NCBI GenBank assembly: GCA_023957775.1
Contig: JAMLGR010000023.1
Location: 1-32,704 of the forward strand
DNA length: 32,704 nucleotides
Reading direction: 5' to 3'
DNA from: Fimbriimonadaceae bacterium
GTDB lineage: Bacteria > Armatimonadota > Fimbriimonadia > Fimbriimonadales > Fimbriimonadaceae
Shown: piece by piece, positions 6,612 to 9,958 of the stretch
How positions within the stretch are numbered: position 1 is the first letter of the stretch
Layout: every line of letters starts with the position of its first letter
The notes under the pieces: generated by a model
What the model was told of the DNA's origin: nothing
The model's database searches: none
The model's input: the letters and a program-made list of their open reading frames with translations, nothing else
Translations under genes and position numbers: made by a program

Positions 6612-7106
6612 GTGAGACGACTCTGCGCACTCCCCCTTGCCCTGATGGCTCTCTTCGTCATCGGCTGCGGTCCCAAGGAGGAACCGGCACCCGCGACCGA
6701 TGCGGGCGTGTCGGCCTCGTCGCCGCCCGAGGCGGCGCCTCCCGTCGCAACGACCGAGACGCCCGCCGACGAGTCGGGATGGAGCACATCCCTCGACGAG
6801 GGGCTCGCCCAAGCCAAGAAAGAGGGCAAGATGGTGCTCGTCGATTTCAGTGCCGAGTGGTGACCGTCGTGCCAGCAGTACGCCCGTGAGGTGTTCCCCA
6901 GCGACAAGTTCAAAGAGAAGGCCGCCGACTTCGTCCTTGTGAAGATCGACGTCGACCAGCAAGGCGAGCTCGCCTCGAAGTACGAGGTGTCCGGCATTCC
7001 CGACATCATCTTCCTCGCTCCCGACGGCACGGTCAAGCACCGAGCCCTGGGATTCCGCGGCACCGAGGGTCTCATCCAAGAGATGGACAAAGCCAAAGCG
7101 CTCTGA
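6612..7106 (+). CDS. Thioredoxin-fold lipoprotein, probable selenoprotein (UGA at residue 84 read as Sec)
   Basis: 164 residues if the in-frame TGA at 6861-6863 is read as selenocysteine. The N-terminus is a lipoprotein signal ending in the lipobox VIGC (lipidated C19), and a Pro/Ala/Thr linker follows to about residue 57. The thioredoxin domain reads KMVLVDFSAEW-U-P-S-C-QQYAREVF, then VLVKIDVDQQGELASKY and the cis-Pro site SGIPDIIF. The TGA is precisely at the first Cys of the normal W-C-x-x-C motif; the frame then continues without a break for 80 residues of good thioredoxin sequence. A decayed gene would not be expected to be interrupted just there. A SECIS-like hairpin follows. Start is GTG at 6612 with a weak ribosome site. 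Likely role: extracytoplasmic thiol-disulfide or peroxide reduction. The gene ends at a strong terminator. Confidence 0.88.
6861..6906 (+). promoter_or_regulatory. Candidate bacterial SECIS element overlapping the Sec codon
   Basis: Immediately after the UGA the mRNA can fold. A basal stem gtcg (6866-6869) pairs with cgac (6902-6905). An apical stem acgcc (6880-6884) pairs with ggtgt (6890-6894), including one G-U pair, around the 5-nt loop cguga. The loop starts 21 nt after the UGA and has a G in its second position, which fits the published spacing (about 16-37 nt) and loop rules for bacterial SECIS elements. The middle of the helix is poorly paired. This is a hand fold, not a computed one. 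Confidence 0.55.
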
Positions 7107-7111
7107 GCGCG

Positions 7112-7144
7112 AAGGACCGCGCCCAGCCCCTGGGCGCGGTCCTT
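7112..7144. terminator. Strong hairpin terminator between converging genes
   Basis: A perfect 15-bp stem (7112-7126 against 7130-7144, aaggaccgcgcccag/ctgggcgcggtcctt) with a 3-nt loop lies between the selenoprotein gene (plus) and the DUF1501 gene (minus). Its outer ends are A/T and give a short T run on both strands, so it probably terminates in both directions. Confidence 0.8.
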
Positions 7145-7145
7145 T

Positions 7146-8468
7146 CTATTGGACCACTCCCAAAGCCTTGGGCGTATGGCCCGGAAAGACCGCCGCAAGG
7201 TTCGTGGAGCGCACCCGTTTGTCCAAAATCTCGGCGAGCACGTCGCGGTAGTCGGTCGTGACGCGCAGGTCTCCCACCTCGTCCAGCTCGTGGGGCTCGA
7301 GCCCAGGCCACTTCGCGTGCACCCTGCCCCCCTGCGTGCCGCCGCCGAGGACCGTCATGACCGAGCCTCGGCCGTGGTCCGTGCCGAGTCCGCTGTTCTC
7401 CTGAAGGCGTCGCCCAAACTCCGTCATCACCACGACGGTGGTCCGGTCGAGGGCGGGCCCGAGATCCTTCGCGAAGGCGGCAAGGGAGTCGGAGACATCC
7501 GTGAGGCCGAGCGCCATGTAGCCCGTGCTGCTCCCTTGGGCGACATGCGTGTCCCAGCCGCCGCGATCGAGGAACGCGACCTCGAGTCCCACGCGGGCCT
7601 TGGCGAGGAACGCCACCTGGCGAAGCCCGCGTCCGAGCTCGGAGTCGGGATACGCCGCTCCGCTCTCCGGCTTGTAGTGCGCCGGGTCGAGTCGGTTCAG
7701 TGTCTCCAGCAGCTTGAACGTCTCGACCCCCGCATCGACGATCGGATCGCGGAGCTGGTCCTGGTACAGGCGGGTCAGCGTTTGGCGAAGACGGCCGCCG
7801 CGGTTTTCAGGCCCCTCGGGGAGTCTCAGCCGGAAATCGGCCAAAGACTCGAGCGCCATTGCGCTCGTCGCGCCTCTTAGCGAGTCGGGCATGACGCTGG
7901 AGAACGCTACGGCCCGGAGCGGGCTCGCCCCCTTTTGGGGCCTCGCATCGAGGTGGCGCGCCAGCCACCCGCTCGCAATTCCTCCCCGGATGTTCTCGTT
8001 GCCGCGCTCCATCGCCGCCATCGCCTCGAAGTGGGAACGTGTGTGATCGCCCGAGCCGCACGCGTGCACGAAACCCAGGCGGCCCTCTCGGTAGAGCGGA
8101 AGCAACGGTCCCATCGCTGGATTCAATCCGAAGAATCCGTCCAGGTCAAGAACCCGGTCCGCCTTCGGGGCCGTGCGGTCCGTGGCGCGAGCCAAGGCCA
8201 AGGTCGGCCGTGCCCGATGGTACGCGTCCGCGCCCACCGGTGCCACCATGTTCATGCCGTCGGCCCCTCCCCGAAGGAAGACGACGACCAGCAGGTCGCC
8301 GGTTGGGTCCGGCTGGTCTCCCAGGGAAAGGTCCGCCAGCGCCGTGCCGCGGGCGGCCCACCAGACCGCCGCAAGCGCGCCGCCGCCAAGCAGGGCCCGA
8401 CGACTCACCGCAGGAGTCCAATCCCCTTCGCACGTCCACCGTTCGTCAAACCGTTTGTTCATCGCCAT
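7146..8468 (-). CDS. DUF1501 family protein with Tat signal
   Basis: About 440 residues of the DUF1501 family, whose fold is related to sulfatases/alkaline phosphatases and whose function is unsettled. A twin-arginine signal is clear: SRRALLGGGALAAVWWAARG at residues 22-41, so the folded protein should be exported by Tat. Family motifs include VVVFLRGGADGMNMVAP near residue 60, FGLNPAM, FVHACGSGDHTRSHFEA, FLDRGGWDTHV and VVVMTEFGRRLQENSGLGTDHG, the last two carrying metal-ligand-like Asp/His residues. ATG at 8468 has GGAG at 5 nt; ATG at 8462 would give a classic ATGA overlap with the upstream DUF1800 stop. DUF1501 and DUF1800 genes are habitual neighbours and probably act together at the cell envelope. 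Confidence 0.9.
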   Translation of the reverse strand: MAMNKRFDERWTCEGDWTPAVSRRALLGGGALAAVWWAARGTALADLSLGDQPDPTGDLLVVVFLRGGADGMNMVAPVGADAYHRARPTLALARATDRTAPKADRVLDLDGFFGLNPAMGPLLPLYREGRLGFVHACGSGDHTRSHFEAMAAMERGNENIRGGIASGWLARHLDARPQKGASPLRAVAFSSVMPDSLRGATSAMALESLADFRLRLPEGPENRGGRLRQTLTRLYQDQLRDPIVDAGVETFKLLETLNRLDPAHYKPESGAAYPDSELGRGLRQVAFLAKARVGLEVAFLDRGGWDTHVAQGSSTGYMALGLTDVSDSLAAFAKDLGPALDRTTVVVMTEFGRRLQENSGLGTDHGRGSVMTVLGGGTQGGRVHAKWPGLEPHELDEVGDLRVTTDYRDVLAEILDKRVRSTNLAAVFPGHTPKALGVVQ

Positions 8469-9958
8469 TGAAACTCCGGCGAGGCGAGGCAGAGAGCTGC
8501 GGTTTCCCGAAGGGCGCGCTCCGGTTCCATCCCCTGCACATGTTCGTTCAAGCGCTTGTAGAGGCCTCGGTTCGGCAAGCGCTTCGACGCGAGGAACCGT
8601 TCGATCGCGCGGTCGCTCGGATCCACGCCGCCTCCATAGGCGGCCCAATCGACCTGTGTGCCCCGCAACCCGATGGTCGCCACCTCGAACGCGAAGTTCC
8701 ACCGCGCGAGCATCGAACCGGTCCAAGCCGAAACCTTGTCGGGATAGCCGTCGGGCATCGGCCACTCGTAGAGCCCTTGGCCCATCTGGTCGAGATGCTG
8801 CAGCACCGCCGGCCCGGCGTCGGTCTCCGCGCCCAGGGCCCGCATGCCGGACGCGACGAAATCGAAAGGCCGCTTGGCGATGGGTGGAGAGTCGAGGAGC
8901 TCCTGCGACGCGAGGATCGGCCGCAGCATCGAGCGGATCTCTCCCCCGGTCTGCCGGTAGATCGACGCCACGCGGTCGACCCATTCGCGTTTCTCGCCGC
9001 CCAGGAAGTACCGACACAGCTTCGACGCGACGAAGTGCGCGGTCGCGGGATGGTTGGCGAGAATGTCGAGCACGCGCTCGCCCGCCAGTTGGCCCGCGGG
9101 GATGCGCTGCCCATTCCACTCCACCTCCGCCGCCGGGTCCTTGACCGTCGGGATGGTCGTTCCCAGCACGCGCTTCGGGCTTGCGTTGTCATGAAGGCCC
9201 GGGTCGAATCGGAAGCGCCCTTTGGGATGCAGGAACCGCGTCTCGATGGTCCACCCCGTCAGGCAGCGCGCCACCTCTCGCACATCGTGCTGCGTGTACC
9301 CACCATGAACGCCCAGGGTGTGCAACTCCATGAGTTCGCGCGCATAGTTCTCGTTGGGGACGCCTTTTCGGTTGACCTGGTTGTCCAGGTAGTTGAGCAT
9401 GGCGGGGCTGTGCGCCGACGCGCGGACGAGATCGGGAAACTTGCCCAAGGCATGCGCCCGCACAACCTTGAGCTGGTCAACCGCCATGTAGTAGGCGCCG
9501 TAGTGTTTGCGCGAGTAGATGTTGAAGTGGTTGGTCCAAAGGTCCACCATGCGCTCGTGGAGCTGGTTCCGGCCGTAGACGGCCCGCAAGAGCGCCGCTT
9601 GCTGAAGCTGGCGGACGACCGCCTCCTCCTTCAGATCGCTCAGTTCGAGCGCGTCGAGGTTGAGGACGTCGAGGCTCGCCAGGCGCACTTGGAGCGCCGG
9701 GTCTTCGGACTCTTTGGCCATCAGGGCGTCGTCCACGTAGGCGGAGATCCCGATGGACGCAACGCGCGCGGGATCGCCTGGCGCGGCTCCGAATGCGACC
9801 CGGTTCAAGAAGCGCGCGATGGGCCGCACGTCGCCCTGCGGAAGGGGGGCGTCGGGCTGTTGCCCCCCGGCGAGGCGCCGGGCGACCCGACCGCAGCCGG
9901 CCGACGCGACGCCGGCCGCCGCCGCGAGTCCGAAGAAGTCGCGGCGCGTCACATTCAT
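8459..9958 (-). CDS. DUF1800 family protein with Tat-type signal
   Basis: 499 residues of DUF1800, a helical secreted family of unknown biochemical function that is co-encoded with DUF1501. The N-terminus MNVTRRDFFGLAAAAGVASAGC combines a twin-arginine motif with a Cys at position 22, so it could be a Tat-exported lipoprotein. Typical motifs are IARFLNRVAFGAAPGD, RMVDLWTNHFNIY, NENYARELMELHTLGV, YTQHDVREVARCLTGW, and RYFLGG in the C-terminal half. The ATG at 9958 overlaps the stop of the preceding membrane-protein gene as ATGA. The order of transcription is membrane protein, DUF1800, DUF1501. Confidence 0.9.
   Translation of the reverse strand: MNVTRRDFFGLAAAAGVASAGCGRVARRLAGGQQPDAPLPQGDVRPIARFLNRVAFGAAPGDPARVASIGISAYVDDALMAKESEDPALQVRLASLDVLNLDALELSDLKEEAVVRQLQQAALLRAVYGRNQLHERMVDLWTNHFNIYSRKHYGAYYMAVDQLKVVRAHALGKFPDLVRASAHSPAMLNYLDNQVNRKGVPNENYARELMELHTLGVHGGYTQHDVREVARCLTGWTIETRFLHPKGRFRFDPGLHDNASPKRVLGTTIPTVKDPAAEVEWNGQRIPAGQLAGERVLDILANHPATAHFVASKLCRYFLGGEKREWVDRVASIYRQTGGEIRSMLRPILASQELLDSPPIAKRPFDFVASGMRALGAETDAGPAVLQHLDQMGQGLYEWPMPDGYPDKVSAWTGSMLARWNFAFEVATIGLRGTQVDWAAYGGGVDPSDRAIERFLASKRLPNRGLYKRLNEHVQGMEPERALRETAALCLASPEFQWR

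Follow-up and report, generated by a model that had tools for sequence, protein, structure and literature searches.

Thioredoxin-fold proteins with selenocysteine (Sec) in the active site have been described in several forms. Sec thioredoxins (UxxC; PF00085, Table 1) and thiol:disulfide interchange selenoproteins with a UxxC motif (PF13098) are already catalogued (PMC13188914), and the Rcas_1661 family (NF041057) consists of thioredoxin-like selenoproteins that are lipoproteins, so that this combination has been catalogued as well. DsbH and the C-terminal domain of DsbD are, for their part, thioredoxin-fold disulfide reductases. Our search of the literature on Armatimonadota or Fimbriimonadaceae together with selenoproteins found nothing relevant. 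An earlier reading of a Fimbriimonadaceae locus from its sequence only had proposed a Sec redox protein tethered outside the membrane and considered it notable in this lineage. For the group, we found no selenoprotein description; as a type of protein, the locus is less surprising than that reading supposed, as UxxC thioredoxins and thioredoxin-like selenolipoproteins are known kinds.

The locus is located in a window of 32,704 nucleotides (the whole stretch of DNA analysed), which corresponds to contig C23 in a draft of 27 contigs; the genome measures 3.5 Mb, with 96.6% completeness and 1.5% contamination. The gene occupies positions 6612-7106 of the forward strand, from a GTG (6612) to a TGA (7104-7106). 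Translation revealed one sole stop in between, the TGA at 6861-6863, in the place of the first, attacking Cys of W-C-P-S-C, the thioredoxin WCxxC motif, exactly where the sequence-only reading had put it. If this codon is read as Sec, it provides the first position of a WUxxC active site, whose resolving Cys is encoded by the TGC at 6870-6872 on the same strand, and the product reaches 164 residues (VRRLCALPLALMALFVIGCG...MVLVDFSAEW-U-PSCQQYAREVF...VSGIPDIIFL...KAKAL). Inspection of the translation by eye showed a short basic start followed by a hydrophobic stretch and, ~20 residues in, FVIGC, which suggests a signal peptide (6612-6671, forward strand; VRRLCALPLALMALFVIGCG) with a lipobox-like FVIG/C. 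A comparable lipobox-like Cys occurs in most of the short homologues that we read. Third-position GC is high on both sides of the TGA (0.80 on the 5' side and 0.85 on the 3' side) and, therefore, coding character continues beyond it, in agreement with the functional-looking codon use that had been claimed for both flanks.

The assignment to the thioredoxin fold is based on profile matches above their cut-offs, the UxxC motif and a cis-Pro position occupied downstream of the TGA (GIP). The best Pfam match was Thioredoxin_7 (PF13899; 5.5e-18, 65.3 bits against a cut-off of 27), with Thioredoxin (PF00085; 2.4e-16, 60.1 bits against 23.5) and Thioredoxin_2 (PF13098; 1.3e-12) also detected. All three matches cover both sides of the TGA, which bears out the claim that thioredoxin sequence, including the cis-Pro, continues after it. 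In the PDB, the read-through protein matches numerous structures of thioredoxins and of protein disulfide isomerases. In NCBIfam, no curated selenoprotein family was matched above its cut-off: the Rcas_1661 (seleno)lipoprotein model gave 11.7 bits where 190 are required (E 0.14, chance level). The DsbD model yielded E 1.4e-16 but only 60.2 bits against a cut-off of 330, and the DsbH model E 1.7e-9 but 38 bits against 190. Scanning a collection of genome contigs with this protein retrieved distant thioredoxin proteins only.

A spermidine synthase gene (PF01564; 5096-6553) lies 58 bp upstream on the same strand, and a DUF1501 gene (7146-9119, reverse strand) lies downstream in convergent orientation. 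Between the two convergent genes, at 7111-7146 on the forward strand, a GC-rich hairpin of 16 bp followed by a T-rich stretch (fold of -32.6 kcal/mol, z -5.9) is probably a two-way terminator that both would share, as judged from its modelled fold; it was not among the hits of a simple terminator scan. Within the short flanks compared at the homologue loci, neither neighbour gene was matched.

The source genome encodes the complete set of genes for Sec synthesis and insertion that the sequence-only reading had proposed to look for (selA, selB, selC and selD): a tRNA-Sec with anticodon TCA (76.5 bits), SelA (505 bits), SelB (366 bits over its full length) and SelD (350 bits; contig C4, 95494-96399). 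The selD gene carries its own in-frame TGA (...VDCAG-U-ATKLGPSQL...), at CAG-U-ATK, the classic Sec site of SelD. SelD would thus itself contain Sec and, therefore, Sec would be needed to make Sec.

To place the internal TGA in an evolutionary context, we compared homologues from the source genome and 200 related genomes. Besides the window gene, 21 thioredoxin-domain loci contained an in-frame TGA, every one at the same codon (two in the source genome and the rest in 16 other genomes). Such a recurrence is far beyond what chance would produce across these sequences, in line with the argument that decay would not be expected to hit that one codon. The TGA-bearing homologues read have W-U-x-x-C, with the exception of one T-U-x-x-C. 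Across the homologues, the position of TGA 6861 is occupied by Cys, as in the nearest ones, or again by TGA, and those read had no additional stops or frameshifts, so that the homologue comparison came out as the sequence-only reading had anticipated. SelA and tRNA-Sec were both present in all 16 of the other genomes with TGA loci, against background frequencies of 106/201 (SelA match) and 105/201 (tRNA-Sec match); the hypergeometric probability of finding TGA loci confined to genomes with Sec machinery was ~2e-5, for genomes that are not fully independent because of their relatedness. The machinery and the conserved TGA codon together support the interpretation of this codon as Sec.

In the consensus for bacterial SECIS elements (PMC13188914, section 5), the loop is situated 16-37 nt after the UGA and carries a GU or GG close to where it begins. 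We predicted a hairpin of this type at 6880-6894 (forward strand), with a 5-bp stem (ACGCC/GGUGU) that starts 16 nt past the UGA and a loop (CGUGA) that starts 21 nt past it, both the loop spacing and the presence of a G within the first two loop positions agreeing with the consensus geometry. Among six Sec genes chosen for equal codon spacing, a choice that favours stem conservation, 90% of the cells in the comparative pair count were paired versus 37–50% when the stem was slid, and two pairs showed compensatory changes on both sides (C-G/G-C and A-U/U-A); 12 of 500 shuffles reached this result. The codon table pointed in the same direction: at the Arg codon of the loop, CGT was used in eight and CGG in two of the ten Sec genes with Arg there, and CGC in none, though these genes use CGC for Arg more often than any other codon, so that the loop retains the consensus G(U/G). 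The folding energy of the hairpin was no better than that of shuffled sequence (z 0.1 to 1.3) or of synonymous recodings, and the energy after the TGA in the 22 Sec genes taken together gave no significant signal against either control. Its value was -6.3 kcal/mol when folded locally, short of the -7.5 kcal/mol of the published model, and -10 kcal/mol for a 45-nt fold. An unconstrained comparison of hairpins between Sec and Cys genes reached only p 0.02, and an Rfam scan of the window gave no match. The predicted SECIS is, hence, a candidate supported by comparison but not proven, and energy alone does not single it out.

These data bear on other ways in which a TGA could occupy this position. 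A single nonsense mutation in a Cys codon, which would leave a truncated lipoprotein as the only product, requires just one base change from TGC or TGT, and Cys is indeed found at this position in the closest homologues. However, in such a pseudogene we would have to accept a frame with no other stop or frameshift, coding character that carries on, compensatory changes in the hairpin and 21 further loci with the same-codon TGA, only in genomes possessing Sec machinery; we consider it very improbable. Those same loci argue against a sequencing or assembly error at 6861-6863. The genome is a draft, probably metagenome-derived, in 27 contigs, and the TGA is known from one assembly of the species, but the error would have had to strike the very codon that is TGA elsewhere, and the Sec machinery would then be a coincidence, which brings this explanation close to negligible.

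The open frame beyond the TGA would fit any reading of the codon, including leaky read-through or an alternative code with TGA translated genome-wide as another amino acid. Nevertheless, selA and selB both terminate in TGA and have none internally, so that TGA acts as an ordinary stop in this genome without global reassignment, which we rejected on these grounds. Moreover, among the conserved genes read, internal TGA occurs only at redox Cys/Sec sites. Either version of this explanation appears extremely improbable.

We therefore favour, as highly probable, a lipoprotein with a Sec-containing (W-U-P-S-C) thioredoxin domain that would be Sec-decoded, exported, lipidated, anchored to a membrane and probably involved in disulfide reduction. 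The frame, motif, fold, Sec machinery and conserved TGA position are read directly from the sequences, and from them we infer the decoding of the UGA, the SECIS, that the protein is lipidated, and what its redox partner and substrate may be. Sec-tRNA(Sec), delivered by SelB bound to the hairpin just downstream, would decode UGA 6861, and the incorporated Sec would be the attacking residue of the thioredoxin domain. The protein would be exported and lipidated, with its anchor either in the cytoplasmic membrane, on the outward-facing side, or in the outer membrane. Outside the cytoplasm, it may act as a reductase or isomerase, probably reducing disulfides or oxidised protein thiols, with disulfide-bonded or oxidised exported proteins as the likeliest substrates. 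Its re-reduction probably involves a DsbD/CcdA-type membrane electron carrier, and the genome encodes a DsbD-type membrane domain at C1:175035, a putative partner. Very probably, then, a gene that annotation pipelines would label as truncated or as a pseudogene yields a redox protein of full length that contains selenium and is anchored outside the cell membrane. It would add a predicted extracytoplasmic Sec reductase to this bacterial group.

The source genome also encodes a fusion of a LolA-like domain with a Sec thioredoxin domain, in which the motif is WUTYC (L056:330-1361, contig C1), and similar LolA-like/thioredoxin fusions occur in relatives, with Sec or Cys. Its third predicted thioredoxin selenoprotein is secreted, has the motif WUGWC and shows a repeat-like pattern in its C-terminal half (L067:597-1415, reverse strand, contig C1). 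A second Sec lipoprotein, with WUGSC, was observed in a member of the order that belongs to a different family (L076, contig C198 of genome G096).

Parsimony on a tree of 61 domains indicated at least eight Sec/Cys changes, on a topology with few well-supported forks whose strongest branches are compatible with a single Sec origin. The window protein clusters with Cys lipoproteins of relatives (genomes G094, G092 and G017) and with a Cys paralogue (WCLNC) from its own genome and, because of this grouping, a Cys-to-Sec conversion in its line is the simplest reading of these sequences and a likely one. A wider scenario, which we consider less probable than not, is that in this order extracytoplasmic thioredoxin domains exchanged Cys for Sec, or the reverse, on repeated occasions, giving rise to exported Sec reductases (lipoprotein, LolA-like fusion and repeat protein) that may make up an extracytoplasmic redox system based on selenium. 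Since Sec and Cys forms coexist in the group, sometimes within one genome, Cys-to-Sec conversion and the birth of SECIS elements are directly comparable here.

Compared with the described systems, the window protein shares the thioredoxin fold with DsbH and the C-terminal domain of DsbD, though it falls far below both family cut-offs and, unlike DsbD, has no membrane domain. With the Rcas_1661 family it would share the character of a thioredoxin-like selenoprotein and, as predicted, of a lipoprotein, despite a match at chance level only. It resembles the PF13098 UxxC selenoproteins in fold class and motif, a likeness that need not reflect orthology. As in the PF00085 Sec thioredoxins, Sec comes first in the active-site motif of a thioredoxin fold, whereas here the domain is carried by a predicted exported lipoprotein, the motif is WUPSC and the best Pfam match is Thioredoxin_7.
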